From positions 1 through 64,000 of the forward strand of contig NZ_JAOANW010000015.1 in NCBI RefSeq assembly GCF_026162365.1: DNA of 64,000 nucleotides, written 5' to 3'. Each line of letters opens with the position of its first letter. Position 1 is the stretch's first letter. The position numbers and the translations under genes were made by a program. Positions 20,301 through 59,117 of this stretch are shown here, piece after piece. The DNA is from Nitratireductor luteus. Its GTDB lineage: Bacteria; Pseudomonadota; Alphaproteobacteria; Rhizobiales; Rhizobiaceae. Under the pieces are notes generated by a model that saw nothing but the letters and a program-made list of their open reading frames with translations, was not told the DNA's origin and made no database searches.

Positions 20301-20603
20301 GTCAAGGTGTTCGAGAAATTCCGCCGCGTGCTTTTGTCCTCTGCCATGCTCGGCGTGCGCGGCCGCATCCAGCGGGAAGGGGAAGTGGTGCATCTCGTCG
20401 CCCACGAGCTGACCGATCTGTCGGCCGAGCTCGCCAGCGTGGGGCACCGCGAGACGCCGTTTCCGTTGCCGCACGGCCGCGGTGACGAGGCCCATCACGG
20501 CGGATCGGGGATCGATCGCCGCGGGATGCCGAAGGCGCGCGATATCGTCGATCCCTACGAGCACATCGACCGCATCAAGGTGAAGACGCGGGATTTTCGG
20601 TAG
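17343..20603 (+). CDS. dnaE2: error-prone DNA polymerase III alpha subunit DnaE2 (ImuC)
   Basis: A 1086-residue C-family polymerase. An N-terminal PHP domain ([15 protein letters not shown]) is followed by the polymerase core with the catalytic [13 protein letters not shown] block near residue 380, the [16 protein letters not shown] thumb region and a C-terminal OB fold. The length and lack of DnaE1-specific tails fit DnaE2. Translation is coupled to imuB. It performs SOS mutagenesis across lesions in the ImuABC complex. Confidence 0.95.
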
Positions 20604-20608
20604 CAAGA

Positions 20609-21856
20609 ATGGACACGACCGCCACCATCCTCCATGCCGATCTCGACGCCTTCTACGCGTCGGTCGAGCAATTGCTCAATCCCGACCTGCGGGGCAAGCC
20701 GATCGCCGTCGGCGGCGGTGTCGTGCTGGCGGCCTCCTATGAGGCAAAGGCGTTTGGCGTTCGCGGCGGCATGCCAGGACGAAAGGCGCGTGAACTCTGC
20801 CCGCAACTGATGTTCGTCAGTGGCAATTTCAAGGACTATCAACGGCTCGGCGATGCGGCGATCAGCGTGCTTGGCGATTTTACACCACTCGTCGAACGCA
20901 TCTCCATCGATGAGGCTTTCGCCGACGTTGCCGGCTGCACGCATTTGTTTGGCTCGCCGGCCGAAATCGCTACGGCGATCCGCCGGCGGGTGCGAGAGGA
21001 CCTTGGACTTCCGATCTCCGTCGGCGTCGCCCGCACCAAGCATCTGGCGAAAATCGCCTCCCAGGTCGCCAAGCCGGACGGCCTCGTGGTGGTTGATCCC
21101 GAGCACGAGCTCGAATTCCTCCATGACTTGCCCGTCGAACTGATGTGGGGCGTTGGTCCCGTCACCAAGGCGAAACTGACCGAGCAGGGCATTCTCACCA
21201 TAGGCCAGTTGGCAAACACACCCGGACGGTCGCTCGAGCGGCTGCTTGGTTCTGCTGCGGGAGAGAAACTTGCAGCCTTGGCGCGGAATCGTGATCCGCG
21301 GGTAATCAACACCCGCCAACGCGCGCGTTCGGCCGGAGCACAGTCGGCGCTCGGCCGGAAGCCGGCCCTGGAGCAGGTCTTCCGGCCGACCCTGCTGCAT
21401 CTTGCTGACAGGGTCGCAAGCCGGCTCCGCAAGAAATCCCTGATCGGGCGGACCGTGACGGCACGCGTTCGCTTCGCCGATCTTCATACCGTCACCCGAT
21501 CGGTCACGCTCGACGCGCCGATCTCGGCGACCGCGATGCTGGCCGAGATCGCTGAAGAGCTCGTGCGTGTTGCCCTTGCCGATCACCCACAGGAAAAGAC
21601 CATCTCGCTTCTGGCGATTTCCGTTTCGCATCTCAGCAAACGGGTGGAGATTCAGCTCGACCTCCCCCTCGGCCTCGCCGACGAGCATCGCCGCCCGAGC
21701 GCAAATCGAGGCATGGCCCGCTGGACGGCGGACATGGCCGTCGACAAGATCCGCGACCGGTTTGGATGGCAGGCGGTCGGCTATGGATCGGCGGCGCTAG
21801 AGATTAGCCGATCCGTTCCCGATGAATTCCGCAAGCTCGCCGAAAAGGATTTGTAG
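20609..21856 (+). CDS. dinB: DNA polymerase IV (DinB)
   Basis: A 415-residue active Y-family polymerase. It shows HADLDAFYASVEQ near residue 10, the YEAKAFGVRGGMPG finger motif and the catalytic SIDEAFADV near residue 95, followed by helix-hairpin-helix and little-finger regions. It starts five bases after the dnaE2 stop, so it is the fourth gene of the SOS operon. This gives the island both an ImuABC mutasome and a stand-alone translesion polymerase. No terminator was recognised after it. Confidence 0.94.
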   Translation: MDTTATILHADLDAFYASVEQLLNPDLRGKPIAVGGGVVLAASYEAKAFGVRGGMPGRKARELCPQLMFVSGNFKDYQRLGDAAISVLGDFTPLVERISIDEAFADVAGCTHLFGSPAEIATAIRRRVREDLGLPISVGVARTKHLAKIASQVAKPDGLVVVDPEHELEFLHDLPVELMWGVGPVTKAKLTEQGILTIGQLANTPGRSLERLLGSAAGEKLAALARNRDPRVINTRQRARSAGAQSALGRKPALEQVFRPTLLHLADRVASRLRKKSLIGRTVTARVRFADLHTVTRSVTLDAPISATAMLAEIAEELVRVALADHPQEKTISLLAISVSHLSKRVEIQLDLPLGLADEHRRPSANRGMARWTADMAVDKIRDRFGWQAVGYGSAALEISRSVPDEFRKLAEKDL

Positions 21857-33778: not shown

Positions 33779-34621
33779 ATGTATCACCAGCTTGCCACCC
33801 GGTTCGGCCGCAACGCCCATCAGATCAGCGGGCGCGAAGCCCTCGACAATGAAGCCCTTTACCGGCATGTCCCGTCCATCTTCGCCCGCGAGGCGCATGA
33901 CAGCCGGTCGGAACGTTACGTCTATGTCCCCACCATCGACATAGTGGAGGGGCTGCGCCGGGAAGGATGGTTCCCGTTCTTCGCCGTGCAGGCGGTTCCC
34001 CGTGACGGCAGCCGCCACGGCCACGCCAAGCACATGCTGCGCCTGCGCCGGGATGAAGGCATCGGCAAGCCGGAGGCCGCCGAAGTCATCATCGTCAACA
34101 GCCATGACGGGACGAGCGCCTACCAGATGTTCGCCGGGATGCTCCGTTTCGTCTGCACCAACAGCATGATCGCGGGCGAGCGCTTCGAGGAAGTCCGCGT
34201 TCCTCACAAGGGCAATATCCAGCATGATATTATCGAAGGCGTTTACACGGTCGCCGAGGACTTCCCGCGCCTGATCGACGCCAGCGAGACCATGAAGGAA
34301 ATCACGCTGTCGGCGGATGAACGCCGCGTGCTTGCCGAGGCGAGCCTTGTCGCCCGCTATGGCGAGGATGAAAGCCCCATCCGTCCCGAACAGATCATCG
34401 AGCCGCGCCGCCGCGAGGATGTGGGCCGGAGCCTCTGGATGACTTTCAACGTCATTCAGGAGAATGTCATTCGTGGCGGACTGGACGGACGCAAGCGCAA
34501 TGCGGAGGGCCGCATCCGCCGCAGCCGCACCCGTCCCATCAACGGCATCGATCAGGGTGTAAGCCTCAATCGTGCCCTTTGGACGCTGGCCGAAGGGATG
34601 CAGCGGCTGAAAACAGGATGA
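33779..34621 (+). CDS. DUF932 domain protein
   Basis: A 280-residue DUF932 protein (RYVYVPTIDIVEGLRREGWFP, HMLRLRR, DGTSAYQMFAGMLRFVCTN), a family of phage/plasmid-borne proteins related to the phage LGT/YqaJ-like 'phage/plasmid-like protein TIGR03299' group. Function unknown, usually found with DUF736 and ParB-like genes on conjugative elements. Its start codon follows copy 2 of the structured leader. It is followed by a 13-bp stem hairpin. Confidence 0.9.
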   Translation: MYHQLATRFGRNAHQISGREALDNEALYRHVPSIFAREAHDSRSERYVYVPTIDIVEGLRREGWFPFFAVQAVPRDGSRHGHAKHMLRLRRDEGIGKPEAAEVIIVNSHDGTSAYQMFAGMLRFVCTNSMIAGERFEEVRVPHKGNIQHDIIEGVYTVAEDFPRLIDASETMKEITLSADERRVLAEASLVARYGEDESPIRPEQIIEPRRREDVGRSLWMTFNVIQENVIRGGLDGRKRNAEGRIRRSRTRPINGIDQGVSLNRALWTLAEGMQRLKTG

Positions 34622-34628
34622 CCACCAA

Positions 34629-34658
34629 GCCGTAGAGCCGGATTTCCGGCTCTACGGC
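34629..34658 (+). terminator. strong hairpin after DUF932
   Basis: A perfect 13-bp stem (34629-34641 with 34646-34658) has the loop ATTT. It begins 7 bases after the DUF932 stop. The following bases are only moderately T-rich. The rest of the gap to 34928 shows no gene and presumably holds the promoter of the activator gene. Confidence 0.65.
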
Positions 34659-34928
34659 TCCGTCTTTCAGGGTTTCCGCGTTCGATATTTTTCCGCCGAT
34701 CCGGCTTTGCGGACAGGCGGCGCGGTCGCGCATTCGTTGCACGTCCGCCGCTCGCCGGGCTGCGCCCGGCTCGCGAAATCACGTCGCAAACGCTGAGAAG
34801 AAGCCGCGAATATCGATCGGGCTACGCGATCAACATATCAGCATAGAGCGGCTTCAAACACGATCTCGTCTCACGAAAGCTCTCACCGGAGATTGCCTCG
34901 CAAACCCTGGAATCGAGAGGCCGACGAG

Positions 34929-35144
34929 ATGTTGAGCATCGATTGGCGTTCGCCTGCGGCGTATCAGCATGCGGAACACATTCCCGCCGCTGGCTTCGCC
35001 TGGGAGTATCTCCGGCGCGATGGCGAGTATCACCGCGACTACCAGCGGATAACGCGCATCAGGAAACCTGCTGCCCGCACGCTGGAGGAATTTTCGAAGC
35101 GCTGGGGGTTGCGATTTCCCGTGCGATCCCGAAACGCCCCCTGA
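34929..35144 (+). CDS. FseA-like transfer activator, N-terminal part (DUF6499; frs1-like)
   Basis: A 71-residue frame starting MLSIDWRSPAAYQHAEHIPA and containing GFAWEYLRRDGEYHRDYQRI, the DUF6499 domain found at the N terminus of transfer activators of the FseA type. It ends RWGLRFPVRSRNAP at a stop at 35142. In full-length relatives RWGLRF continues into a DP..P....FW linker and the DUF2285 domain. That continuation is present here in the +1 frame (see next entry). In ICEMlSymR7A the same split is bridged by programmed +1 frameshifting. The 36-bp longer TTG start at 34893 is less likely. Confidence 0.82.
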   Translation: MLSIDWRSPAAYQHAEHIPAAGFAWEYLRRDGEYHRDYQRITRIRKPAARTLEEFSKRWGLRFPVRSRNAP

Positions 35145-35715
35145 TCAGCAGTCGCCATTCTGGATTCCAAGCCTTCAGCCGCACGCGGTTCAATTGTCGC
35201 CAGTGCGGCAAGTGGGCGCCGACATTAGCACCGCCTCGATCAAGCTGGCGCATCTCGATGGTCTCGATCTCCGGCACGCAGAGGACGGCTGGCACGGACT
35301 CTGGCGAGCCAATGGTGTCACGCATCAAATGTGGCTGCCCGCAGCGCTACCCGACGTGCCGACGTCCTACGCTGTCATCTTGCCGATGGATTCCTTTCTG
35401 GAATTGCGCGCGCACGCCGCGCGGCGGCTTTGGCGATCGCTCAATGGCCGTGTGCCGGGACCGGACTTCCGCGCCATGCCGGCACAGCTCCGACAGTTCC
35501 ACATTCTCTCGCTGCGGGCACTCGATGCCCGGCTGCGGGAGATCAGCTACCGGAAGATCGCCGAAGTGCTTTTGGGCTTTCGTGGCACGAAAGAGGACTG
35601 GGAGAGCGATCCCCGGAAGAACCGGGCTCGCCGTCTCGTTGGCAATGGCCTGCGCATGATGCGCGGCGGCTATCGGACGCTGCTCCACTACCCGGTCAGA
35701 CTGCCGAAGCGCTAG
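35119..35715 (+). CDS. FseA-like transfer activator, C-terminal part (DUF2285; frs2-like)
   Basis: This +1-frame segment is open from 35053 and has no convincing start codon or ribosome-binding site of its own. From 35119 it reads PCDPETPPDQQSPFWIP and then the DUF2285 helix-turn-helix domain (LRALDARLREISYRKIAEVLLG, RNRARRLVGNGLRMMRGGYRTLL). Joined to the preceding frame at TTT-CCC-G (35115-35121) it gives one continuous family-like protein of about 260 residues. Expected to activate the excision/regulator gene downstream, as FseA does for rdfS. Confidence 0.82.
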   Translation, partial: PCDPETPPDQQSPFWIPSLQPHAVQLSPVRQVGADISTASIKLAHLDGLDLRHAEDGWHGLWRANGVTHQMWLPAALPDVPTSYAVILPMDSFLELRAHAARRLWRSLNGRVPGPDFRAMPAQLRQFHILSLRALDARLREISYRKIAEVLLGFRGTKEDWESDPRKNRARRLVGNGLRMMRGGYRTLLHYPVRLPKR

Positions 35716-35864
35716 GCAGCATATCCGATCATCACACCTCCAAAGGGGTGCCGCCAGCGCAGAGGCGCAAATGCGGCACGCTACACGTCGCCGATGATCC
35801 GCCACGGTTCGCCATGACGCGCTGTCACCGCCGGCAGCGCCCCGAACGAACCGGAGGTGTCCCC

Positions 35865-36134
35865 ATGCCCGATCCGCTGGCCGGTTTGCCGCCGCGACTC
35901 CTGCGCACGCCCGAGGCGGCGCGCTTTCTTGGAATCTCCATCCGCACGCTTGAGAAGCACCGCACCTACGGGACTGGTCCGACCTATCGCAAGATCGGTG
36001 GCCGCGTCGTGTATGCCGTCGAAGACCTGCAAGCCTGGACAGCGAGCGGGGCCCGCAAATCCACCACCGACAAGGACGCGGGCCGCGTCTTTCCGGCGCG
36101 TCCCCTGACGCCGGCCGAGCGGGGCGAGCGCTAA
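35865..36134 (+). CDS. AlpA/MerR-like helix-turn-helix protein (RdfS-like)
   Basis: An 89-residue protein with an excisionase-type winged helix (LLRTPEAARFLGISIRTLEK, then GPTYRKIGGRVVYAVEDLQAW). GGAGG lies ten bases before the ATG. Its place between the activator and repA is the same as that of rdfS in ICEMlSymR7A, where the product is both recombination directionality factor and activator of the traF operon. RdfS works with a tyrosine integrase, which is not in this window. The only integrase seen is of the serine type. Confidence 0.8.
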   Translation: MPDPLAGLPPRLLRTPEAARFLGISIRTLEKHRTYGTGPTYRKIGGRVVYAVEDLQAWTASGARKSTTDKDAGRVFPARPLTPAERGER

Positions 36135-37154
36135 ATGTCGCGCGATGACCAGCATCGCCGCACGCATCGGCCCGAGGCCAGCGAGCGGACCCGCCTCGAT
36201 CCCTTCGTGGTGGCGACTGGCGACGCTTCCCCACGCGACCAGCGCGACCTCATGGAGCGGCCCTTCTTCTCGCTGGCGAAGACCCCGCGCACCAAGCCGA
36301 TTCTCTACAAGGCGGCCGATGTCGAGGTCCGAGTGTACGGCATGCCCCAGCACGGCATGGCGACCATCTGGGATGCCGACGTGCTCATCTGGGCAGCCTC
36401 GCAGATCGTCGAGGCCGAGAACCACGGCCTCGCCACCTCACGCTTCTTCCGCTTCACGCCGTACCAGCTCCTCCGCGCTATCGGCCGTCCCACCGGCAAC
36501 CGACAATATCTGCTGCTCAAGGCCGCGCTCGCACGCCTGCAATCGACCGTCATCGCAACCACGATCCGCAACGGCGCACACTGGAGGCGCCGGCAATTCT
36601 CCTGGATCAACGAATGGGAGGAGATGACGACGCGAGCCGGCCGCGTAGAGGGCATGGAGTTCGTCCTGCCCGAATGGTTCTACAACGGCGTCGTCGACCG
36701 CTCGTTGGTGCTCACCATCGACGCGGCCTATTTCCGGCTGACGGGCGGCATCGAGCGCTGGCTTTATCGCGTTGCCCGCAAACATGCCGGTCGCCAGCGC
36801 CACGGCTGGCTGTTTGAGTTCGCACATTTGCACGCCAAGTCTGGCAGCCTTGCGCGCTTTTCCGACTTTGCGCTCGATCTCCGCCGGATCGTTGCCCGCC
36901 AGCCGCTGCCCGGCTACCAGCTCCAGATCGAGCGGGAAAATCGCCGCGAGTTGCTGCGCATCCAGCCCGACGAACAATTCACAGTGCCTGTGGAAAGGCA
37001 TGTGAATCCTATCGGCACATCAGGCGCACGAACTATCGGCACATCAGACGCAACTCTCTTTATAGAAGAGTCTAACAGAGAATCTAACTCTTCTTCTTTG
37101 ACGCGCACGCGCGCGATCCATGGTGCCACTGCCGGCCGGAGGCGCGCACCATGA
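36135..37154 (+). CDS. repA: replication initiator protein A (RPA family)
   Basis: A 339-residue RPA-family replication initiator, a type common on alphaproteobacterial ICEs and plasmids. Recognisable parts are MERPFFSLAKTPRTKPILY, TIWDADVLIWAASQI, RLQSTVIATTIR and FVLPEWFYNGVVD. It starts right after the stop of the helix-turn-helix gene. The C-terminal tail contains two 8-residue repeats (IGTSGART, IGTSDATL) encoded by 24-bp DNA repeats and is less GC-rich. It may support replication of the excised circle. It is coupled to parA by ATGA. Confidence 0.9.
   Translation: MSRDDQHRRTHRPEASERTRLDPFVVATGDASPRDQRDLMERPFFSLAKTPRTKPILYKAADVEVRVYGMPQHGMATIWDADVLIWAASQIVEAENHGLATSRFFRFTPYQLLRAIGRPTGNRQYLLLKAALARLQSTVIATTIRNGAHWRRRQFSWINEWEEMTTRAGRVEGMEFVLPEWFYNGVVDRSLVLTIDAAYFRLTGGIERWLYRVARKHAGRQRHGWLFEFAHLHAKSGSLARFSDFALDLRRIVARQPLPGYQLQIERENRRELLRIQPDEQFTVPVERHVNPIGTSGARTIGTSDATLFIEESNRESNSSSLTRTRAIHGATAGRRRAP
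37009..37056 (+). repeat. two 24-bp direct repeats in the repA 3' end
   Basis: CTATCGGCACATCA begins at 37009 and again at 37033. The 24-bp units differ at few positions and keep the reading frame. They could be iterons of an origin inside the initiator gene, or simply encode a peptide repeat. Confidence 0.6.
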
Positions 37155-37804
37155 TCGTCGCGCTCCTCAACCAGAAAGGCGGCGTCGGCAAGACCACGCT
37201 AGCGCTGCATCTCGCCGGCGAATGGGCCGGGAGAGGACAGCGCGTAACGGTGATCGACGCCGATCCCCAAGGCTCCGCGTTGGACTGGTCGCAGCAGCGC
37301 AGCCGCGAGGGCCTGCCGCGGCTGTTCGGCGTCATCGGTCTGGCACGGGACACGCTGCATCGCGAGGCGCCGGAGCTGGCCCGCAATGTCGATCATGTCG
37401 TCATTGACGGCCCACCACGTGTCGCTGCCCTCATGCGCTCGGCGCTGCTTGCCGCCGACCTGGCGCTGATCCCTGTCCAGCCTTCGCCTCTCGACGGCTG
37501 GGCGTCGGCCGAGATGCTGGCGCTTCTGCGCGAAGCGCGCATCTATCGGCCACAACTCGCCGCACGTTTCGTGCTGAACCGCTGCGGCGCGCGCACGATC
37601 ATCGCTCGCGAGACGGCCGAGACGCTGGCCGATCACGATCCCCCTGTGCTCACCACCACCATCGGCCAGCGTGTCGTCTTCGCCGACGCTGCGCGGACTG
37701 GCCGGCTCGCTTTCGAGATCGATGATGACAGCCCGGCCGCGCGTGAGATCGCGGCGCTCACCGCCGAAATCGACAGTCTTCGCATCGGAAGGGTCGCGCC
37801 ATGA
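37151..37804 (+). CDS. parA: ParA-family partition ATPase
   Basis: A 217-residue ParA/MinD-type ATPase with the deviant Walker A NQKGGVGKTTLALHLAG (residues 7-23), VIDADPQGSALDW and VIDGPPRV as Walker B. It lacks an N-terminal DNA-binding domain, so it is a small ParA of type Ib. It is joined by ATGA overlaps to repA before and to a ribbon-helix-helix gene after, which would be its centromere-binding partner. Confidence 0.93.
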   Translation: MIVALLNQKGGVGKTTLALHLAGEWAGRGQRVTVIDADPQGSALDWSQQRSREGLPRLFGVIGLARDTLHREAPELARNVDHVVIDGPPRVAALMRSALLAADLALIPVQPSPLDGWASAEMLALLREARIYRPQLAARFVLNRCGARTIIARETAETLADHDPPVLTTTIGQRVVFADAARTGRLAFEIDDDSPAAREIAALTAEIDSLRIGRVAP

Positions 37805-38055: not shown

Positions 38056-38570
38056 CCGGCAATGCGGCCCGCCGCATGCGCGGCCGTCCGTGGCCGGACG
38101 GTCCCGCGCCCTTCACCACATTGGTCGAGCTAACGTGGCATCAGAAGAAGATCGAGCACTGGATCAGGTTCGGCCACAAGAGCTACGAGAAGATCCTCGA
38201 CCGCCGCCGCAGTATCGTCGGCTTCGCGCCGGACAGCATGTTCGCCTTCGTGCGCTGGGCGGCCAACGACTTCGGCACGATCGTCTCGCGCATCGATATC
38301 GTGCGCGCCGTTGGCCGCGGCGAGCCGTTCCAGACGCTACCCTTCGTGCGGCCAGGCGGGGAAATCATGCTGCGGCTCGACGGCTGGTCGAAAGTCGAGC
38401 GCGCCCTCCAGGCGATCGATGCGGTGGAGCCCCTCGGCCTCGATCCGGCAGATGTCGCGCCGGAGCACTGGCGGCATGTGCACAATCGTCTGATCGCCGG
38501 CCATGAGCCGCGCGCCTACACGCCCGAGCAGCACGCTGCCTGGCTCCAGCGCCGGAAGATCGCGCCATGA
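38052..38570 (+). CDS. DUF2840 family protein
   Basis: A 172-residue protein with the family pattern TLVELTWHQKKIEHWIRFG, FAPDSMFAFVRWAANDFGT and GGEIMLRLDGWSKVERAL. DUF2840 proteins occur only in this type of transfer operon, next to traF. The function is unknown. ATGA overlaps on both sides show it is translated with parA and traF. Confidence 0.88.
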   Translation: MTGNAARRMRGRPWPDGPAPFTTLVELTWHQKKIEHWIRFGHKSYEKILDRRRSIVGFAPDSMFAFVRWAANDFGTIVSRIDIVRAVGRGEPFQTLPFVRPGGEIMLRLDGWSKVERALQAIDAVEPLGLDPADVAPEHWRHVHNRLIAGHEPRAYTPEQHAAWLQRRKIAP

Positions 38571-39112
38571 CCCGCTTCGGCTACGTCATGATGACGTACT
38601 TCGCGACGATGGGCGTCGCCGTCGCCGCCTTCATTCCGACGCCTGTGAAGGTGATTTGGAACGCCAGCGCGAGCGCGCCGATCGGCTTCTACACCATTGA
38701 GCCCGTCGGTTGGCTTGAGGTGCCCGATCTCGTCGCCGTCGTTCCGCCCAAACCGCTGGCGCGCTTCATGGCGGAGCGCGGCTATGTCGGACGCGGCGCA
38801 CCGCTTCTGAAGCGCGTTGTCGGCCTGCCGGGACAGCGCGTTTGTCGCTCCGGTCGCACCATCACCGTCGACGCAGTTGAAATGAGCGAGGCGCTGGAGC
38901 GCGATCGCTTCGGCCGCGAACTGCCCGTCTGGCAGGGCTGCCGCGTGATCGCTGACGGCGAAATCTTTCTCATGAACTGGGAAGTCCGAGACAGCCTTGA
39001 TGGCCGCTACTTCGGACCCATCCCGGCAAGCTCCGTCATCGGTCGGGCGACACCGCTCTGGACCGACGAGGAGGACGACGGCCGCTACCAATGGCGCGCG
39101 CCGACGCACTGA
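38567..39112 (+). CDS. traF: TraF, S26-type signal peptidase for pilin maturation
   Basis: A 181-residue membrane peptidase. An N-terminal membrane segment is followed by the catalytic Ser in ASAPIGFYTIEP and the Lys in APLLKRVVGLPGQ. In RP4 TraF cyclises the TrbC pilin, and trbC is present at 48810. The DNA YFGPIP and RATPLW regions match the C-terminal part of the family. It starts with an ATGA overlap. Confidence 0.93.
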   Translation: MTRFGYVMMTYFATMGVAVAAFIPTPVKVIWNASASAPIGFYTIEPVGWLEVPDLVAVVPPKPLARFMAERGYVGRGAPLLKRVVGLPGQRVCRSGRTITVDAVEMSEALERDRFGRELPVWQGCRVIADGEIFLMNWEVRDSLDGRYFGPIPASSVIGRATPLWTDEEDDGRYQWRAPTH

Positions 39113-40417: not shown

Positions 40418-40713
40418 AGACGGCGCGCTCGCGTTTGGGGACCCTCATTTCGGTGTGCAGGCAAAAGGCGTCATGCCTGGTCCACGACCCGGCGGGAGAG
40501 GCAGAAAGGGCGGGAAGGGCGGAGGGCAAGATTAAAGCGGACGGCACCCTATGGCCCCAATCCGCAGGGCAAGCCTTTGTCTGCACACTGTTGAGGGCGG
40601 CACCCTCGAAATGCCAGTATGGTGCCGGCGATTTTCGGAAAGTCAGCATTTGTAGGCTTTCCGGCGGCACTCCTGCCCGAGATCCGGCGGATCGGCGGGG
40701 TCGCCGCCGATGA
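40414..40713 (+). CDS. doubtful 99-codon frame over the candidate oriT
   Basis: The frame begins with ATGA on the transglycosylase stop, with GGAGAG upstream, and ends with ATGA on the relaxase start. The encoded Cys- and Arg-rich sequence matches nothing I know, and the DNA is dense in inverted repeats. It may serve only to couple translation into the relaxase gene. Confidence 0.25.
   Translation: MKTARSRLGTLISVCRQKASCLVHDPAGEAERAGRAEGKIKADGTLWPQSAGQAFVCTLLRAAPSKCQYGAGDFRKVSICRLSGGTPARDPADRRGRRR
40593..40690 (+). other. candidate origin of transfer (oriT) with nic-like sequence
   Basis: Directly upstream of the relaxase gene. It contains inverted repeats GAGGG/CCCTC (40593-40607), CGGCACC/GGTGCCG (40598-40627) and CGGAAAG/CTTTCCG (40636-40663). 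Immediately after the last arm comes CACTCCTGCCCG (40669-40679). This resembles the RP4-type nic region (TATCCTG/CCCG), which would place the nick after G at 40675 on the + strand. Position next to the relaxase gene is as in ICEMlSymR7A. The exact nick is inference. Confidence 0.55.
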
Positions 40714-42749
40714 GCGACGACGAGGATCGCTTCCGCCCGCGACCTGGCCGCATCCGCTCCGATGCGCGCGGTGGCGCCAAGACCAAGAGCTTCTTCACCA
40801 AGGTCAGAAAGATCGCCCGCCAGCATGGCGGATCGCGGTCGCGTAGCGGCGCGTGTGCCGCCGGCGACAGGGGCGGATCGCGATCGGCGTTGGCGAGCCG
40901 CCGGGGCGTGAAGCGCGGGCGCGGTGCGGCCTTCGTCTGCTCGCGCAACCTGTCGGGAGGGTGGGGCCATCGCCAACGCGGAAGCCGGCGCGTGATCGTC
41001 AAATCGCGCTCCGTCCGCGCCGCCGGCAAGAACGGCCGGGCCGCTGCCCATCTGCGCTATATCCAGCGCGACGGCACCTCGCGCGACGGCGAGCGTGGCC
41101 AGCTCTATTCGACCACCGAGGATCGCGCCGATGGCAACGCCTTCCTCGAGCGCGGCAGGGACGACCGGCACCAGTTCCGCTTAATCGTCTCGCCAGAGGA
41201 TGCGGCCGACCTTGCCGAACTGACCGGATTCACCCGCGACCTGATGAATCAGATTGAAGCCGACCTCGGTACGAGACTCGACTGGGTGGCGGTCAACCAC
41301 TTCAACACCGGCCATCCCCACGTCCACGTCATCGTCAACGGTCGCGATGAGCTGGGCGAGGATCTGGTCATCAACGGCGACTATATTGCTCATGGCATTC
41401 GCGAGCGGGCGACTGAGCTCGCGACGCTCGAACTTGGCCCCGTGACGGAGATCGAACAACAGCGCAAGATCACCACCGAGATCGATCAGGACCGCTTCAC
41501 CCGAATCGATCGCGCGATGATCGAGGAGGCTCGTGACGGCCTGGTCGATCTTCGCCACGAGGCCGGCGATCCGCGCGCCATCGCTCGCCGCGGGCTGCGG
41601 CTGGCGCGCCTCGGCAAGCTGGAGAAGATGGGGCTGGTAACCGAGCATGCGCCTGGCGTTTGGGAATTGAGCGACCGGCTCGAACCGGTCCTGCGCGAGT
41701 TCGGCCAGCGCGGCGATATCATCCGCACAATGCAGAAGGTGCTTCGGGCCGGGGGACAGGAGCGTGACCCGGCGAGCTTTCAGATTCATGCCTGCCCGCC
41801 CGGCGTACCAATCATCGGCCGTGTCATCGACAGGCGTCTGTCCGACGAACTGGGGGAGAACCTCACCCTGGTTGTCGACGGGATCGACGGCCGCGCGCAT
41901 CACGTCTCGGGCTTTGACCCGGTTCGTGTCGAGGACGCTCGTATCGGCAGCATTGTGGAGATTGGCTCGGCCGACACGGCAAGCCGTCCCTCCGATCGCG
42001 CCATTGCGGGCATGGCGGAGGACGGCATCTATCGGCCGACCCGGCATCTGGAACAGGCGCGTTTCGATGGCCGCGTTCCCAGCAGCGACTATGACGGTTT
42101 CGTCGAAGCGCATGTTCGCCGGCTGGAGGCGCTGCGCCGAGCCGGCATTGTCGAACGTATTGATGCCCACCAGTGGCGCGTCCCGGAGGATTTTGAGAGC
42201 CGGGCCGCTGCCTATGACGCCGGTCACAACCGGCAGGCCAACGTCCGCGTCCTGTCGGCGTTCGATCTGGAAAGCCAGATCGCAGCGGATGGAGCGACCT
42301 GGCTCGACCGGCGTCTGATTGCGGGTGAGGCATCCGATCTCGCTCCCGTCGGCTTCGGTCAGCATGTCGGCCAATCCATGGACCGGCGCCGCGAGCGCCT
42401 GATCGAACAGGGTGACGCCACGCGCCAGCACAACGGCCGGGTCTTCTATCGTCGTAATCTTCTCGCCACCCTGCGCGAGCGCGAAGTCGCTCGCGTCGGC
42501 GCGGAACTGGCGGCTGCGAAGTCGTTGCCGTTCCGGGCGGTCGCGAACGGTGACACTGTCAGCGGGAAGTTCACAGGCACGCTCCAGCTATCGAGCGACA
42601 AGTTCGCCATCGTGGAAAAAGCGCACGAGTTTACGCTAGTTCCATGGCGCCCGGTTATCGACCGCCAGCTCGGTCGCGAGGTCATGGGCATTGTACAAGG
42701 CGGGTCGGTATCGTGGCAGTTGGGCCGCGCGAGGGGGATTGCGCTTTAG
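40710..42749 (+). CDS. DUF3363-type VirD2-family relaxase (RlxS-like)
   Basis: A 679-residue relaxase. After a basic N-terminal segment come the candidate tyrosine in HLRYIQRDGTSRDG and the three-histidine metal site in NHFNTGHPHVHVIVNG, then a long C-terminal DUF3363 region. It nicks oriT and leads the DNA strand into the recipient. The start overlaps the short doubtful frame upstream by four bases. It is separated from traG by the qseC/qseM-like pair, which suggests its own transcription unit. Confidence 0.93.
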   Translation: MSDDEDRFRPRPGRIRSDARGGAKTKSFFTKVRKIARQHGGSRSRSGACAAGDRGGSRSALASRRGVKRGRGAAFVCSRNLSGGWGHRQRGSRRVIVKSRSVRAAGKNGRAAAHLRYIQRDGTSRDGERGQLYSTTEDRADGNAFLERGRDDRHQFRLIVSPEDAADLAELTGFTRDLMNQIEADLGTRLDWVAVNHFNTGHPHVHVIVNGRDELGEDLVINGDYIAHGIRERATELATLELGPVTEIEQQRKITTEIDQDRFTRIDRAMIEEARDGLVDLRHEAGDPRAIARRGLRLARLGKLEKMGLVTEHAPGVWELSDRLEPVLREFGQRGDIIRTMQKVLRAGGQERDPASFQIHACPPGVPIIGRVIDRRLSDELGENLTLVVDGIDGRAHHVSGFDPVRVEDARIGSIVEIGSADTASRPSDRAIAGMAEDGIYRPTRHLEQARFDGRVPSSDYDGFVEAHVRRLEALRRAGIVERIDAHQWRVPEDFESRAAAYDAGHNRQANVRVLSAFDLESQIAADGATWLDRRLIAGEASDLAPVGFGQHVGQSMDRRRERLIEQGDATRQHNGRVFYRRNLLATLREREVARVGAELAAAKSLPFRAVANGDTVSGKFTGTLQLSSDKFAIVEKAHEFTLVPWRPVIDRQLGREVMGIVQGGSVSWQLGRARGIAL

Positions 42750-42792: not shown

Positions 42793-43020
42793 CTAGGATT
42801 CTTCTGTTGAATCGATTTCTGCTAGCAGGTCGGCAGGCTTGACACCCACGGCCTGAGCAGTGTGCCAGAGCGTGAGAAGCGTCACATTCTGCACGCCGCG
42901 CTCCATGGCGCTTACATGGGCGCGGTCGGCACCAATACGCTCAGCCACGGCCTCCTGGCTGAGGTCGGCGGCGAGCCTGTAACGCCGTAGGTTCGACCCG
43001 AAAAGCTCCCGTATGTCCAT
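42793..43020 (-). CDS. XRE-family repressor (QseC-like)
   Basis: A 75-residue protein consisting of little more than an XRE helix-turn-helix (LRRYRLAADLSQEAVAERIG, HVSAMERGVQNVTLLTL). It is divergent from the small DUF2285 gene at 43121 with a 100-bp gap containing a 14-bp palindrome. In ICEMlSymR7A the XRE protein QseC binds operators between qseC and qseM and sets antiactivator expression. Gene size, divergent layout and partner family all agree, so the same role is inferred. Confidence 0.8.
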   Translation of the reverse strand: MDIRELFGSNLRRYRLAADLSQEAVAERIGADRAHVSAMERGVQNVTLLTLWHTAQAVGVKPADLLAEIDSTEES

Positions 43021-43120: not shown

Positions 43121-43417
43121 ATGTGCGTGAGGCCTGAGCTTGATCCCGATGTCGATGACGAGGCCCCGAGCGGCCCGGACATCACCCCATACGATGAAGC
43201 ACACTTCCTGACCTATCTGCGCCTGCTCGACGCTGATGCCGAGGGGGCGGACTGGGCCGAAGTATCGCGGATCGTTCTGCATCGCGACCCCGTTGACGAA
43301 GAAGCGCGAACCCGCCGATGTTGGGAAAGCCATCTCACCCGCGCCCACTGGATGACGAAACATGGCTATCGCCGGATACTCGAACAGGCCATAGAGGAGT
43401 CGCGGAAAGTCCACTAG
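43121..43417 (+). CDS. small DUF2285 protein (QseM-like antiactivator)
   Basis: A 98-residue protein that is a single DUF2285 domain (YDEAHFLTYLRLLDADAEGADW, ARTRRCWESHLTRAHWMTKH). It lacks the DUF6499 half present in the activator at 34929-35715. In ICEMlSymR7A, QseM is such a solitary DUF2285 protein and blocks both TraR and FseA. Both potential targets are present here. The first 20 residues are acidic. The call is by domain and neighbourhood. Confidence 0.8.
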   Translation: MCVRPELDPDVDDEAPSGPDITPYDEAHFLTYLRLLDADAEGADWAEVSRIVLHRDPVDEEARTRRCWESHLTRAHWMTKHGYRRILEQAIEESRKVH

Positions 43418-43547
43418 CACTGAGGGAAGGCCCTCCGATTTCTTCGCCATGGTATCCAGCAGTACGCCGGATTTTCGTTATCTATTGCCTCTCACCGTCG
43501 CGCCTATTCTCTGATCGACTCCGTCTCTTTTGCCGATTGGAGCCCAT

Positions 43548-45536
43548 ATGCGCGGCGGCCGAATACTCTGGGGTCAGATTGCCATCGTCTTCACCATCGT
43601 TCTGGCGATGACCTGGGCGGCGACGCAATGGACCGCATGGCGGCTCGGCTTCCAGCCGCAACTCGGCAATCCCTGGTTCGAGCTGGCCGGCTGGCCGGTC
43701 TACTATCCGCCGGCCTTCTTCTGGTGGTGGTTCTCCTTCGACGCCTACGCGCCCGTGATCTTCGTCGAGGGCGCCATCATCGCCGCGTCGGGCGGCTTCA
43801 TCGCGATCGCCGCCGCGATTCTCATGTCGATCATCCGGGCGCGGGAAGCAAAGAACGTCGCGACCTACGGTTCGGCACGGTGGGCGGAAGACGAGGAAAT
43901 CCGCGCCGCGGGCCTGCTCGGTCCCGATGGCGTCGTACTTGGTCAATATGACCACGATTATCTGCGCCATGACGGACCGGAGCACGTCCTGTGCTTTGCG
44001 CCGACACGCTCGGGCAAGGGCGTGGGGCTCGTGGTGCCGACGCTGCTGACCTGGCCGGGAAGCTGCATCGTTCACGATATCAAGGGCGAGAACTGGACGC
44101 TCACGGCGGGCTTCCGCGCGAAGCACGGCCGCGTCCTGCTGTTCGATCCGACCAACGCCCAATCCTCCGCCTACAATCCGCTTCTGGAGGTGCGGCGGGG
44201 CGAATGGGAAGTCCGCGACGTGCAGAATATCGCGGATATACTGGTCGATCCCGAAGGCAGCCTCGAACGCCGGAACCACTGGGAAAAGACCAGCCACGCT
44301 CTGCTGGTCGGCGCGATCCTGCACGTCCTTTATGCGGAGCCCGACAAGACACTTGCGGGCGTTGCCAACTTCCTGTCCGACCCGAAGCGGCCGGTCGAGG
44401 TGACACTGCGCGCGATGATGGACACGCCGCATCTGGGTGAGGCTGGAGTTCATCCCGTCGTCGCCTCGGCCGCGCGCGAATTGCTCAACAAGGCGGACAA
44501 TGAACGCTCGGGCGTGCTGTCCACGGCCATGTCCTTCCTCGGCCTTTACCGCGACCCTGTCGTGGCGCGCGTGACGGCGCGCTGCGACTGGCGCATCGCC
44601 GATCTGATCGCAAGCCACCAACCGGTCAGCCTCTACCTCGTCGTGCCGCCCTCCGACATCAACCGCACCAAGCCGCTGATTCGGCTGATCCTCAACCAGA
44701 TCGGGCGCAGGCTAACGGAGGAATTGCAGACGTCCGGCAAGCGCCATCGCCTGCTTCTGATGCTGGACGAGTTCCCCGCCCTCGGGCGGCTGGATTTCTT
44801 CGAGAGCGCATTGGCTTTCATGGCCGGTTACGGCCTCAAGAGCTTTCTGATCGCGCAGAGCCTCAATCAGATCGAGCGGGCTTATGGGCAGAACAACGCC
44901 ATCCTCGACAATTGCCATGTCCGCGTCGCCTTCGCCACGAACGACGAACGAACCGCCAAGAGGGTCAGCGACGCGCTCGGCACGGCGACCGAGTTGCGTG
45001 ATTCCACCAACTATGCCGGGCATCGGCTGGCCCCCTGGCTCGGCCACCTCATGGTGTCGCGTCAGGAGACGGCCCGCGCGCTGCTGACTCCCGGCGAAAT
45101 CATGCAGTTATCCCCCACCGACGAAATCGTCATGGTGGCGGGCACACCGCCGATCCGAGCGAGGAAGGCGCGCTATTACGAGGACGAGCGCTTCGCGGAA
45201 CGCGTCCTGCCGTCGCCCGAGCGGGTCGAATCTCATCCTGCGGAGGTGGCGCAAACGGCCGACGAGTGGTCGAACCGTGTGATCTCGTCGGGGCCGGAAG
45301 CCTCTCAAGATCGCCATGATCCCGTTGCGGATCCCACCAACGCCGGTATCCGGCGCGAGCCGGAATTGCCTGAGCATGAGGAGATCCTCCCGCCCAAACG
45401 CGCCCCGGAACGTGAGTTCGACCTGCTGGACGACGGGCCCGATGTCGATGCTGCAAAGGCGCGGGCGATGCGGCAACGCCTTCGCATCGTCGCCCGCCAG
45501 GCGTCGATGGATCCGGCCGATGGCATCGAGCTGTAG
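43548..45536 (+). CDS. traG: TraG/VirD4 type IV coupling protein
   Basis: A 662-residue coupling ATPase with two N-terminal membrane segments (about residues 10-30 and 70-95), a Walker A APTRSGKG at 151-158 and Walker B LLLMLDEFPALGRLDFF. It feeds the relaxase-DNA complex into the Trb channel. The ATG at 43548 has GGAG upstream. It is followed by the copG gene ten bases later. Confidence 0.95.
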   Translation: MRGGRILWGQIAIVFTIVLAMTWAATQWTAWRLGFQPQLGNPWFELAGWPVYYPPAFFWWWFSFDAYAPVIFVEGAIIAASGGFIAIAAAILMSIIRAREAKNVATYGSARWAEDEEIRAAGLLGPDGVVLGQYDHDYLRHDGPEHVLCFAPTRSGKGVGLVVPTLLTWPGSCIVHDIKGENWTLTAGFRAKHGRVLLFDPTNAQSSAYNPLLEVRRGEWEVRDVQNIADILVDPEGSLERRNHWEKTSHALLVGAILHVLYAEPDKTLAGVANFLSDPKRPVEVTLRAMMDTPHLGEAGVHPVVASAARELLNKADNERSGVLSTAMSFLGLYRDPVVARVTARCDWRIADLIASHQPVSLYLVVPPSDINRTKPLIRLILNQIGRRLTEELQTSGKRHRLLLMLDEFPALGRLDFFESALAFMAGYGLKSFLIAQSLNQIERAYGQNNAILDNCHVRVAFATNDERTAKRVSDALGTATELRDSTNYAGHRLAPWLGHLMVSRQETARALLTPGEIMQLSPTDEIVMVAGTPPIRARKARYYEDERFAERVLPSPERVESHPAEVAQTADEWSNRVISSGPEASQDRHDPVADPTNAGIRREPELPEHEEILPPKRAPEREFDLLDDGPDVDAAKARAMRQRLRIVARQASMDPADGIEL

Positions 45537-47826: not shown

Positions 47827-48813
47827 ATGGCAACCACTCACCAGCAATCGGAAGCGATCCGGCGCGGCGCGCGCATGCTGCGCACGGCGCTTGGAGCGTC
47901 GATTGCCCGGTTTCTGGAAGACCCGGCGGTGATCGAGGTGATGCTGAACCCGGATGGCCGCATCTGGGTGGATCGTCTGTCCGAAGGGCTGGCCGATACG
48001 GGGGAGATGCTGACCGCCGCAGATGGCGAACGCATCGTGCGACTGGTCGCCCATCATGTCGGCGCGGAGGTGCATTCGCGCAGCCCGCGCGTCTCGGCCG
48101 AACTTCCCGAAACAGGTGAGCGGTTCGAGGGCCTGTTGCCGCCCGTCGTCGCCGCGCCCGCATTCGCCATCCGCAAGCCGGCCGTCGCGGTGTTCACGCT
48201 CGACGACTATGTAGCCGCCGGCATCATGATTGCCGACCAGGCGGCAACGCTGCGCGCGGCCGTCCAATCCCGCGCGAACATCCTCGTCGCCGGTGGCACC
48301 TCGACGGGCAAGACCACGCTGACCAATGCGCTGCTCGCCGAGGTGGCCAAGACGGCGGATCGCATCGTCATCATCGAGGACACGCGCGAGCTGCAATGCG
48401 CCGCGCCCAACCTCGTCGCCATGCGCACCAAGGACGGTGTCGCTACGCTTTCCGAGCTCGTCCGCTCCTCGCTGCGCTTGCGCCCCGACCGCATCCCGAT
48501 CGGCGAGGTGCGCGGTTCGGAAGCGCTCGACCTCCTCAAAGCCTGGGGCACAGGCCATCCCGGCGGCATCGGTACCATTCACGCAGGAACCGGCATCGGC
48601 GCGCTGCGTCGTCTCGAACAGCTCATCCAGGAAGCCGTTGTCACCGTTCCGCGCGCCTTGATCGCCGAAACCATCAACCTCGTTGCCGTGCTGTCCGGCC
48701 GCGGTTCCACGCGCCGCCTGACCGAACTCGCTCGCGTCGACGGGCTCGGCCCGGACGGCGACTACCGCATCGCGCCAGCTACCAACAACAGCACCACAGG
48801 AGAAACTGTATGA
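47827..48813 (+). CDS. trbB: TrbB, VirB11-type secretion ATPase
   Basis: A 328-residue VirB11 family ATPase. Walker A is GGTSTGKT at 156-163, the Asp box is [11 protein letters not shown], and the Walker B/His box is [16 protein letters not shown]. It energises pilus assembly and substrate transfer at the inner face of the membrane. It is the first gene of the trb run and overlaps trbC by four bases. Confidence 0.96.
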
Positions 48814-49142
48814 TCCGCCGTGCCATGCGCATCCGTCGCCACATCGCGACCGTTGCCGCCGTTACCTATGTCAACCTGCTGCTCGTCCCGGCTGCCCACG
48901 CCTCGGGCTCGTCCATGCCGTGGGAAGCGCCGCTTCAGAGCATCCTTGAATCCATCGAGGGGCCGGTGGCCAAGATCATCGCCGTGATCATCATCATCGT
49001 TACCGGCCTGACGCTGGCCTTCGGCGACACCGGTGGCGGCTTCCGCCGGTTGATCCAGATTGTCTTCGGCATTTCCATCGCCTTCGCGGCCAGTTCCTTC
49101 TTCCTGTCGTTCTTCTCCTTCGGCGGCGGGGCGCTGGTCTGA
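48810..49142 (+). CDS. trbC: TrbC, conjugative pilin precursor
   Basis: A 110-residue prepilin. It has a basic N terminus, a signal peptide ending near AAHASGS, and two membrane helices (about residues 55-75 and 85-105). TraF at 38567 is the expected processing enzyme. It begins with ATGA on trbB and shares one base with the trbD start. Confidence 0.92.
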   Translation: MIRRAMRIRRHIATVAAVTYVNLLLVPAAHASGSSMPWEAPLQSILESIEGPVAKIIAVIIIIVTGLTLAFGDTGGGFRRLIQIVFGISIAFAASSFFLSFFSFGGGALV

Positions 49143-49423
49143 TGGCGACCGTCCTTGAACAGCTTGCCGAGGTGCCGGGCTTCTCCGTCCCTGTCCATCG
49201 CGCGCTGACCGAGCCGATCCTGCTCGGCGGCGCACCGCGCTCCATTGCGATTCTCAATGGCACATTGGCTGGAGCCGTCGGCCTGGGCCTCCAGCTCTGG
49301 CTGGCCGGGATCGCGATCTGGGCTATCGGCCATGTCGCGGCGGTCTGGGCCGCCAGGCGCGATCCGCTTTTCGTCGAGGTCGGCCGCCAGCATCTGCGCC
49401 TGCCCGGCCATCTGAACGTATGA
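49142..49423 (+). CDS. trbD: TrbD, VirB3-like inner-membrane protein
   Basis: A 93-residue VirB3-type protein starting VLEQLAEVPGFSVPVHRALT after the initial residues, with two close membrane segments between about residues 38 and 70. It works with TrbE in the inner-membrane complex. Its start overlaps the trbC stop. Confidence 0.92.
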   Translation: MATVLEQLAEVPGFSVPVHRALTEPILLGGAPRSIAILNGTLAGAVGLGLQLWLAGIAIWAIGHVAAVWAARRDPLFVEVGRQHLRLPGHLNV

Positions 49424-49433
49424 GGGGCCGGAC

Positions 49434-51968
49434 ATGATGAATCTCACCGAATACCGCCGCACCGCCGCCCGTCTTGCCGACTATCTGCCCTGGGTCGCGC
49501 TCGTCGATCAGAGCGTGGTCCTCAACAAGGATGGTTCGTTCCAGCGCACGGCGCGGTTTCGGGGTCCCGATCTGGATTCCGCCGTCGCGGCCGAACTGGT
49601 CGCGGTGGCAGGTCGCATCAACAACGCCTTCCGCCGTCTCGGTTCCGGCTGGAGTATCTTCGTCGAGGCCCAGCGATATCCATCCTCCGCATATCCCGAC
49701 AGCAGGTTTCCCGATCCGGCCTCCGCGCTGGTCGATGCGGAACGCAGGGCGGATTTCGAGGGGGAGGTCGATGAGCAATCGTCCCCGCGGAACGATCGCC
49801 GACCGAACGGCACGTATTTCGTGTCCAGCTACTTCCTGACATTCCTCTACCTGCCGCCGGCCGAGGACGCCGCCCGCACCGAGGCCTGGCTTTACGAAGG
49901 CCGTGAGCAATCCGGTGTGAACCCATGGGAGATCCTGCGCGGCTTTGCAGACCGTACCGACCGCGTGCTGGCGCTGCTCGACGGCTTCATGCCTGAATGC
50001 CGCTGGCTCGATGATTCCGAGACGCTGACCTATCTGCATTCGACCGTCTCGACCAACCGGCATCGCCTCCGCGTGCCCGAGACACCGATCTATCTCGATG
50101 CGCTGCTAGCCGATCAGCCGCTGGCTGGCGGGCTGGAACCACGCCTTGGCGATCAACACCTCCGTGTGCTGACCATCGTTGGCTTCCCGACCACGACCAC
50201 GCCCGGCCTGCTCGACGAGATGAACCGGCTCGCTTTCCCGTATCGGTGGAGCACACGGGCGATCCTGCTCGACAAGACCGACGCCACGCGGCTGCTGACC
50301 AGAATCAGGCGGCAATGGTTCGCCAAGCGCAAGTCCATCGCGGCGATCCTGAAAGAGGTCATGACCAACGAGCAATCCGCGCTCGTGGACACCGACGCCG
50401 CGAACAAGGCCGCCGACGCCGATATGGCCCTGCAGGAGCTTGGGGCCGATGTCGCCGGCATGGCCTACGTCACCGCGACGGTCACGGTCTGGGACGCCGA
50501 TCCCCGCATTGCCGACGAGAAGTTACGGCTCGTCGAGAAGATCGTCCAGGGCCGCGATTTCACCGCCATGGCCGAGACCGTCAATGCCGTCGATGCCTGG
50601 CTGGGCAGCTTGCCGGGACATGTCTATGCCAATGTCCGCCAACCGCCTATTTCGACGCTCAATCTCGCCCACATGATCCCCCTGAGTGCCGTGTGGGCGG
50701 GGCCGGAACGGGACGAGCATTTCGGTGCGCCCCCCTTGCTCTACGGCAAGACCGAAGGCTCGACCCCGTTCCGGTTTTCCCTTCATGTCGGCGATGTGGG
50801 GCACACACTTGTCGTCGGCCCGACCGGCGCCGGCAAGTCCGTGCTGCTCGCGCTGATGGCCTTGCAGTTTCGCCGCTACGAGGGTTCGCAGGTTTTCGCC
50901 TTCGACTTCGGCGGCTCGATCCGCGCCGCCGCGCTCGCCATGGACGGAGACTGGCACGATCTGGGTGGCGGACTGACCGAGGGGGCGGACACCTCCGTTT
51001 CGCTTCAGCCGCTCGCCCGCATCCACGATACCTATGAACGCGCATGGGCGGCAGACTGGATCGTCGCAATTTTGATACGCGAGGGCATCCAGATCACGCC
51101 GGAGGTGAAGGAACATCTCTGGACGGCGCTGACCTCGCTCGCCTCCGCGCCGGCCGAGGAACGCACCATCACCGGTCTCGCGGTCCTGCTGCAAAGCAAC
51201 GACCTGAAACAGGCGCTCCGGCCCTACTGCGTCGGCGGTGCCTTTGGCCGGCTGCTCGATGCCGAGACCGAACATCTCGGCTCGGCACGTTGCCAGGCGT
51301 TCGAGATCGAGGGCCTTGTCGGCACCGGCGCGGGTCCGGCCGTGCTCGCCTATCTCTTCCATCGTATCGGCGACCGGCTCGACGGCCGCCCGACGCTGCT
51401 CATCATTGACGAGGGCTGGCTTGCGCTGGATGACGAGGGCTTCGCCAGCCAGCTCCGCGAATGGCTGAAGACGCTCAGGAAGAAGAACGCCAGCGTCATC
51501 TTCGCCACGCAATCGCTCTCCGACATCGACAATTCCGCCATCGCGCCGGCGATCATCGAGAGCTGCCCGACCCGGCTGCTCCTGCCAAACGAGCGTGCGA
51601 TCGAGCCGCAGATCACGGCAATCTATCGCCGTTTTGGCCTCAATGACCGGCAAATCGAAATCCTCGCGCGGGCGACGTCCAAGCGGGATTACTACTGCCA
51701 GTCGCGGCGCGGAAACCGCCTGTTCGAACTGGGCCTGTCCGAAGTCGGGCTCGCGCTCTGCGCCGCGTCCGCCAAGTCCGATCAGGCCGCCATCGAGCGC
51801 ATTGTCGCCGAACACGGCCGGGACGGCTTCCTCGACGCCTGGCTGCGCCATCGCGGCGTCGATTGGGCCACCGACCTCGTTCCCAGCCTCACCAATCTCG
51901 CCGACCGGCCGGAACCACCCGCGCCGGTCGCGCCGGATCGTTTCCCAACAGAGGAGATTACCCCATGA
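49434..51968 (+). CDS. trbE: TrbE, VirB4-type secretion ATPase
   Basis: An 844-residue VirB4 ATPase starting MMNLTEYRRTAARLADYLPW. Walker A is GPTGAGKSVLLALMAL near residue 462 and Walker B TLLIIDEGWLALDD near 655, followed by TQSLSDIDNSAIAPAI. It is the main energising component of the channel. It is coupled to trbJ by ATGA. Confidence 0.96.
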   Translation: MMNLTEYRRTAARLADYLPWVALVDQSVVLNKDGSFQRTARFRGPDLDSAVAAELVAVAGRINNAFRRLGSGWSIFVEAQRYPSSAYPDSRFPDPASALVDAERRADFEGEVDEQSSPRNDRRPNGTYFVSSYFLTFLYLPPAEDAARTEAWLYEGREQSGVNPWEILRGFADRTDRVLALLDGFMPECRWLDDSETLTYLHSTVSTNRHRLRVPETPIYLDALLADQPLAGGLEPRLGDQHLRVLTIVGFPTTTTPGLLDEMNRLAFPYRWSTRAILLDKTDATRLLTRIRRQWFAKRKSIAAILKEVMTNEQSALVDTDAANKAADADMALQELGADVAGMAYVTATVTVWDADPRIADEKLRLVEKIVQGRDFTAMAETVNAVDAWLGSLPGHVYANVRQPPISTLNLAHMIPLSAVWAGPERDEHFGAPPLLYGKTEGSTPFRFSLHVGDVGHTLVVGPTGAGKSVLLALMALQFRRYEGSQVFAFDFGGSIRAAALAMDGDWHDLGGGLTEGADTSVSLQPLARIHDTYERAWAADWIVAILIREGIQITPEVKEHLWTALTSLASAPAEERTITGLAVLLQSNDLKQALRPYCVGGAFGRLLDAETEHLGSARCQAFEIEGLVGTGAGPAVLAYLFHRIGDRLDGRPTLLIIDEGWLALDDEGFASQLREWLKTLRKKNASVIFATQSLSDIDNSAIAPAIIESCPTRLLLPNERAIEPQITAIYRRFGLNDRQIEILARATSKRDYYCQSRRGNRLFELGLSEVGLALCAASAKSDQAAIERIVAEHGRDGFLDAWLRHRGVDWATDLVPSLTNLADRPEPPAPVAPDRFPTEEITP

Positions 51969-52744
51969 CCAAATACCGTTTCAGATTCGCCGGCGCCACG
52001 GCCCTCGCACTGGCCCTTGCCGCTCCGGTCACACTGTCGCCGATGCTCGCCAGCCCGGCTCACGCACTCTTCGGCTTCGGCGACATCGTCTATGACCCGA
52101 CAAACCACGCCGAGAACCTTTTGACTGCCGCCCGCACGCTCGAGCAGATCAACAACCAGATCCAGAGCCTCCAGAACGAGGCGCAGATGCTCATCAACCA
52201 GGCCCGCAACCTCGCGAGCCTGCCGCATTCCTCGCTCCAGCAGCTTCAGCGGAACGTGCAGCAGACCCAGCAGCTCCTCGCCCAGGCGCAGAACATCGCC
52301 TTCGACGTCCAGCAGGTCGACCGGATGTTCCAGCAGGACTACGCCAATCTCGATCTTTCGGCGACCGATTCCCAACTCGTCGCCGATGCGCGGTCGCGCT
52401 GGGAGAACACGGTTGGCGGATTGCAGGATGCGATGCGCGTCCAGGCCGGAGTTGTCGGCAATATCGACACGAACCGTGCCGAAATGTCGGAGCTTGTCGG
52501 TCAGAGCCAGGGAGCCACCGGGGCTTTGCAGGCCACCCAGGCCGGCAATCAGCTTCTCGCCCTCCAGTCGCAACAGCTTTCCGACCTCGTCGCGGTGATG
52601 TCCGCCAATGGCCGCTCCGAAGCGCTGATCGAGGCCGAACGCGCGGCGGCGGCCGAACAGGGCCGCATCCAGCGCGAGCGCTTCCTGACGCCGGGAGCCG
52701 GCTACCAGCCCGGCAACGCCCGGATGTTCACCGGCGGCAATTGA
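51965..52744 (+). CDS. trbJ: TrbJ, VirB5-like pilus-associated protein
   Basis: A 259-residue exported protein with a signal peptide cleaved near ASPAHALFG (about residue 35) and a long coiled-coil middle (TLEQINNQIQSLQNEAQMLI, QLQRNVQQTQQLLAQAQ). It corresponds to VirB5/TrbJ, the minor pilus component at the tip. It starts with ATGA on trbE. Confidence 0.93.
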   Translation: MTKYRFRFAGATALALALAAPVTLSPMLASPAHALFGFGDIVYDPTNHAENLLTAARTLEQINNQIQSLQNEAQMLINQARNLASLPHSSLQQLQRNVQQTQQLLAQAQNIAFDVQQVDRMFQQDYANLDLSATDSQLVADARSRWENTVGGLQDAMRVQAGVVGNIDTNRAEMSELVGQSQGATGALQATQAGNQLLALQSQQLSDLVAVMSANGRSEALIEAERAAAAEQGRIQRERFLTPGAGYQPGNARMFTGGN

Positions 52745-52762
52745 CGCGCAGGAGGGGCAGCC

Positions 52763-53050: not shown

Positions 53051-53054
53051 TCCG

Positions 53055-59056: not shown

Positions 59057-59117
59057 CGGTTGGCCTCCGGGTTTCGAAGTCAACCAATGATGTTTCATTT
59101 GGCAAGGTTTCAGGAAT

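Follow-up and report, generated by a model that had tools for sequence, protein, structure and literature searches.

Conserved nucleotides at the junction of a split fseA gene in Nitratireductor luteus point to a programmed +1 frameshift on UUU-C

The window, a 64-kb stretch of DNA covering positions 1–64000 of contig C5, contains a split gene, fseA, on the plus strand. Its first part (34929–35144, the equivalent of msi172) carries a DUF6499 domain (PF20109, E 2.7e-23) and is read in frame 0 from an ATG at 34929 to a TGA stop at 35142–35144; GAGAGG at 34915–34920 is a plausible candidate ribosome-binding site for this ATG. The second part (35053–35715, the equivalent of msi171) carries a DUF2285 domain (PF10074, E 3.5e-30) in the +1 frame, which is open from 35053 and ends with a TAG at 35713–35715. 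We take PF20109 and PF10074 to be the former DUF6499 and DUF2285, the current Pfam names no longer containing 'DUF' (the PF10074 match in the +1 frame is named RovC_DNA-bd); plasmid annotations at matching places agree with both equivalences. A search by sequence with the DUF2285 part of the window, or with a 12-row profile, gave no match to a solved RovC chain in the PDB. Both frames had been described in this way by the original prediction, made from the DNA alone, and open-reading-frame reading and Pfam matches confirm them. The PF20109 match in the genome-wide search terminates at 35120, which is the junction between the frames. No ATG, GTG or TTG occurs in the window's +1 frame between the upstream stop and the junction, so the DUF2285 frame lacks a start of its own there, as had been claimed; the first such codon is a TTG at 35194.

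The sequence leading into the junction, TGG-GGG-TTG-CGA (35103–35114), combines a Shine-Dalgarno-like G run with a CGA codon and matches the ribosome-binding-site-like UGGGGG at WGL described for FseA (PMC10359603). It is followed by TTT-C (35115–35118), the proposed slip tetranucleotide, on which tRNA-Phe would move from UUU to UUC (+1). The five-G run ends 6 nt upstream of TTT, the next frame-0 codon is CCC, and the frame-0 stop begins 27 nt past the first TTT base. A downstream RNA structure acting as a stimulator was considered and set aside, 35118–35210 folding at z −1.27, and no sigma-70-type promoter or terminator was found in 34600–36000. The gene has the domain arrangement of FseA, with an N-terminal DUF6499 and a C-terminal DUF2285, as well as the feature by which split FseA is recognized in PMC10359603, a +1 offset at a conserved site adjoining a WGL coded by UGGGGG.

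The genes around fseA fit a circuit like that of ICEMlSymR7A, as judged from sequence matches. A DUF932 gene precedes fseA, and a rdfS-like gene for a putative recombination directionality factor (35865–36134, plus strand; HTH_17, PF12728 E 4.7e-9; solved RdfS 8dgl E 2.3e-9) follows it. Further along the plus strand are genes for a RepA-like replication initiator (36135–37154, PF10134), a ParA-like ATPase (37151–37804), a signal peptidase (38567–39112, Peptidase_S26 E 2.1e-30) for which the name TraF is inferred, and a MobA/VirD2-like relaxase (40710–42749, DUF3363). An XRE-type regulator on the minus strand (42793–43020; HTH_3, HTH_31 E 4.6e-10) diverges from a plus-strand gene with a DUF2285 domain only (43121–43417; PF10074 E 1.5e-6). 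The product of the latter is a putative QseM-type antiactivator, matching chain 7uqt (E 1.6e-16), whose label, 'Quorum sensing master protein', we read as QseM; the XRE-type regulator would by its position be the equivalent of QseC, which adjoins QseM (PMC8627217). A TraG/VirD4 coupling protein (43530–45536) and trb-type conjugation genes (47827–57245; T2SSE ATPase, TrbE-like, TrbL, VirB8, CagX and TrbI) follow, all on the plus strand. The minus strand then encodes a LuxI-family autoinducer synthase (58457–59098; PF00765 E 5.4e-23 at 58517–59029) and a LuxR-family quorum-sensing regulator (59137–59997; PF03472, PF00196), a possible TraR equivalent, whose best match among solved LuxR-type chains is RhlR (3.7e-13), with TraR 1h0m at 2.2e-7. 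These LuxI and LuxR genes, at 58457–59997 of the window, may belong to the element.

Elsewhere in the window, 86–1780 (minus strand) encodes a large serine recombinase with resolvase, recombinase and zinc-ribbon domains, possibly the integrase of the element. Five adjoining genes at 3901–12945, a C5 cytosine methylase (best PADLOC model MTase_II) followed by matches to MzaB, MzaC, MzaD and MzaE, are by these matches probably an Mza defence system. Three adjoining genes at 15796–21853 encode an IMS-domain protein (by inference ImuB-like), a DNA polymerase III alpha subunit and a Y-family polymerase.

Related loci were chosen for their DUF6499 domain. Of 197 such loci, 80 came from named genomes (the best 80 of 188), and the remainder from searches of the window's own genome and of genomes of its order, genus and phylum, together with 40 further places; the loci used are a subset of the places that these searches listed. 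Removal of five Brucella/Ochrobactrum loci left 192, the window's own included, a sample skewed toward close relatives. Among the recA loci compared, the nearest named genome is Nitratireductor soli (best pieces 86%), with Brucella and Ochrobactrum at 75–78%. Split +1 genes make up 152 of the 192 loci and single-frame genes 32; no DUF2285 partner was found in 6, and 2 have the partner in the +2 frame. These last two (L014 and L170) have a TTT-C junction, and their +2 frame is perhaps due to a second indel or an assembly error. One locus (L025) is split +1 under one cut-off and partnerless under the other, which was used for the 192-locus count. The loci are related by descent; we therefore give counts instead of probabilities, and the counts are not independent events. 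Removal of identical 150-nt windows left 136 unique split loci. In 128 of the 192 loci an rdfS-like gene was found on the strand of fseA, farther downstream; the remaining loci may lack it or have it outside the stretch examined.

The split is thus not peculiar to the window's contig. That the two frames are separated by a single base might suggest a dead gene or a sequencing error, a reading to which we give next to no weight: the identical +1 split with a conserved junction in 152 loci from many assemblies already contradicts it, as does the conservation of each frame on its own side of the junction. The latter is evident from column entropies, in which the third position is the most variable in six of the eight frame-0 codons before the slip codon and, past it, in 8 of 11 codons when these are read in the +1 frame but in 2 of 11 when they are read in frame 0. 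Beyond the junction, residues D, P and W of the +1 frame (positions 3, 4 and 15) are retained in 96, 125 and 126 of the 136 unique split loci, and the first 25 codons of this frame contain two stops in all, in two rows; frame 0 is interrupted there by stops at varying places in many rows.

The strongest constraint lies on the junction nucleotides themselves. A readable motif is present in 150 of the 152 split loci (the two without it are L204 and L208), and TTT stands at the junction in 148 of these 150. One exception, L109, is a split fseA with TGT-C in place of TTT-C; the other, L203, has ATT. The base after TTT is a pyrimidine in all 148 loci (C in 141, T in 7). Among unique split loci, TTT is present in 134 of 136, and two other places in the same sequences served as an internal control: phenylalanine at the slip place is encoded by TTT in 134 of 134 cases, whereas TTC prevails at codon −8 (TTT in 17 of 81) and at codon 14 of the +1 frame (TTT in 8 of 67). 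Similarly, CGA accounts for 102 of the 113 arginine codons directly before TTT but for 7 of 103 at codon −5. The background share of TTT among phenylalanine codons is 22.6% across the upstream domain and 34.9% in the downstream frame, and that of CGA among arginine codons of the upstream domain is 10.7%; these three figures include four misplaced rows (L126, L130, L176 and L231), for which the junction counts were corrected. TTG and GGG are likewise enriched within the junction motif. The conserved slip site that was to be looked for in related elements would be this junction. Single-frame relatives follow no such rule: of the 27 (out of 32) with the motif, 4 have TTT, 2 have TTC and 21 have another codon.

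Retention of TTT-pyrimidine, together with the phenylalanine and arginine codon controls, points to a tRNA-Phe that leaves UUU in the P site and re-pairs one base further along, with UUC or UUU, and for the window a slip from UUU to UUC is the best fit to these sequence data. In bacteria, UUU_Ynn has been named as a sequence with a particular tendency to +1 frameshifting (PMC5009743). The original prediction had instead placed the slip on the following codon, with tRNA-Pro moving from CCC to CCG. CCC does follow TTT in the window and in 110 of the 148 TTT-bearing split loci, and in the window either placement yields the same peptide. However, in the other 38 loci CCC is replaced (by CGC, CGT, CGG, CCG, TGC, TGT, TCC, TTT or CAC) with TTT unchanged, CCC is likewise missing from 37 of the 134 unique loci, and from most of the replacement codons the same tRNA would be expected to re-pair poorly one base on. 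We therefore regard a slip on CCC as improbable; the skip point probably lies one codon earlier, on TTT. The split observation is thus confirmed, and the interpretation first given to it is partly supported. No slip codon for fseA came up in the literature consulted; one may have been published, and we do not claim the UUU-C placement as new to the literature.

Could the two domains instead be separate proteins, the DUF2285 part being translated from an internal start and joined to DUF6499 non-covalently? For an Azorhizobium pair, separate start and end codons have been described (PMC9601964), contact between the two domains has been reported (PMC10359603), and 89 of the 136 unique split loci have some ATG, GTG or TTG in the +1 frame upstream of the junction. 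In the window, however, the first +1-frame start, TTG 35194, lies downstream of the conserved D-P and W residues, and separate translation leaves the constraint on TTT-pyrimidine unexplained, so that we consider it very unlikely. Even less can be said for transcriptional slippage on the G run, by which a mixed mRNA would allow read-through. The five-G run does end close ahead of TTT, but five bases is short for transcriptional slippage, the fifth G is missing in 45 of 134 unique loci, and constraint peaks at TTT and the next base, not at the G run; the probability left to this explanation is negligible. Neither the G run nor CGA is universal (TGGGGG in 89 of 134 and CGA in 102 of 136 unique split loci). 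A programmed +1 frameshift producing the FseA activator is thus strongly supported by sequence comparison, in the gene family, the sense of the shift, the conserved junction and the neighbouring genes, as had been proposed.

The +1 signal of prfB (RF2) has an upstream G-rich Shine-Dalgarno-like stretch ending 3 nt before the slip codon; the fseA junction resembles it in coupling a +1 shift to such a stretch, and differs in that its G run ends 6 nt before the slip codon. Counted from the first base of the slip codon, the frame-0 stop of split loci begins 9 to 711 nt downstream and therefore lies outside the signal, unlike in prfB. With no stop codon in the A site, the junction is not of the prfB type, and its slip codon is UUU where prfB has CUU (CUU_U; PMC5009743). 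It is closer to UUU-pyrimidine shift sites, at which UUU is followed by a pyrimidine and no stop codon is needed, and of which yopN-tyeA is listed as an apparent case (PMC5009743); the fseA site differs in being conserved over a family of transfer regulators.

Among the closest known systems is FseA (msi172–msi171) of ICEMlSymR7A in Mesorhizobium japonicum, for which a programmed +1 frameshift with an RBS-like UGGGGG coding WGL is described (PMC10359603), in agreement with what had been said of it in the original prediction. The window's gene shares with it DUF6499 and DUF2285 in two frames, the +1 join and UGGGGG at WGL, in a putative circuit that includes RdfS, QseM and possibly quorum sensing, all three of which belong to the R7A circuit (PMC10359603, PMC5882170). 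In contrast to R7A, fseA here lies behind the DUF932 gene, not behind traI2, and directly upstream of the rdfS-like gene. Single-frame DUF6499–DUF2285 proteins have the two domains likewise arranged, and an rdfS-like gene often follows theirs; they differ in having one frame and no TTT rule (4 of 27). In a tree of 146 distinct DUF2285 domains, 130 from split and 16 from single-frame genes, the two forms must have interchanged at least 6 times, and well-supported branches force 3 of these changes; its columns are too few to separate gains from losses. The expectation that the window would provide a further natural case is well supported, but the case is less special than supposed: most of the published FseA family is split, about 61% of 4709 homologues at the conserved site (PMC10359603). 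The window's fseA is therefore another well-supported case of a frameshift already known in this family, to which we add a probable position for the slip, UUU-C, and a reconstruction of the surrounding circuit.

Two additional FseA-like genes are present in the same genome. On contig C44 (20500–25500), a split fseA with TTT-CGC follows a LuxI gene and has a DUF2285-only frame as its neighbour; LuxR-like and XRE-like open reading frames, recognized from their translations only, adjoin these genes, and the gene order is close to traI2–msi172–msi171 of R7A. On contig C8, a single-frame FseA-like gene lies beside a LuxI match spanning positions 6–102 of 183.

Upstream of the rdfS-like gene in the window is an inverted repeat, GTGCCGC-N18-GCGGCAC (35748–35779, plus strand), whose pattern makes it a candidate FseA box. 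When 84 promoters were scanned for hexamers, GCCGCA occurred at 15–16-nt spacing in 26, compared with 3.5 in shuffles, and GTGCCG at 19–20 nt in 34, a count made without a shuffled control. This result led to a mismatch test with the window's own repeat as the search pattern. Of 77 non-redundant split-locus promoters, 27 contain the repeat with no more than one mismatch; so do 2 of 231 control stretches (a set that may in part overlap the repeat) and 0 of 77 shuffles. Three or more mismatches are found in 48 of the 77 promoters, some with paired changes (for example, GGGCCGT/ACGGCCC), and none of 17 single-frame promoters has fewer than two. The published FseA box consists of inverted hexamers 15–16 bp apart, the nearer one 62–67 nt upstream of rdfS (PMC10359603), whereas in the window 18 nt separate arms of 7, and the repeat lies further upstream, its right arm about 86 nt before the rdfS-like ATG.

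Taken together, the window's gene is very probably the fseA of an R7A-type integrative and conjugative element, its full activator being made by a UUU-C +1 slip. Ribosomes would initiate at 34929, translate DUF6499 and arrive at TGG-GGG-TTG-CGA-TTT-C, where most presumably continue in frame 0 and terminate at 35142. A minority would slip +1 with tRNA-Phe on UUU in the P site, re-pairing on UUC, and continue in the DUF2285 frame from CCG (35119), so completing the activator; the slip is probably helped by the G run upstream and by CGA, a weak codon, in the E site. By analogy with R7A, the full protein would then switch on the rdfS-like gene, perhaps through the inverted repeat, and so start excision, and the QseM-like protein would restrain the activator by binding DUF6499. 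More tentatively, the fseA junction may represent a class of stop-free +1 signals in which CGA occupies the E site and UUU-pyrimidine the P site, with a G run spaced as at a start codon, and in which selection throughout the Alphaproteobacteria maintains the nucleotides; the DUF6499 piece made without a shift, which is presumably the chief product, may be a decoy that soaks up QseM and sets a threshold for transfer.

The UUU-C placement can be tested, as a synonymous TTT-to-TTC change should abolish the slip and a change of CCC should not. The window adds an integrative and conjugative element, apparently of the quorum-sensing type, to the cases in which transfer appears to hinge on a rare translational event, and the FseA family offers a large natural set for the study of +1 frameshifting without a stop codon.
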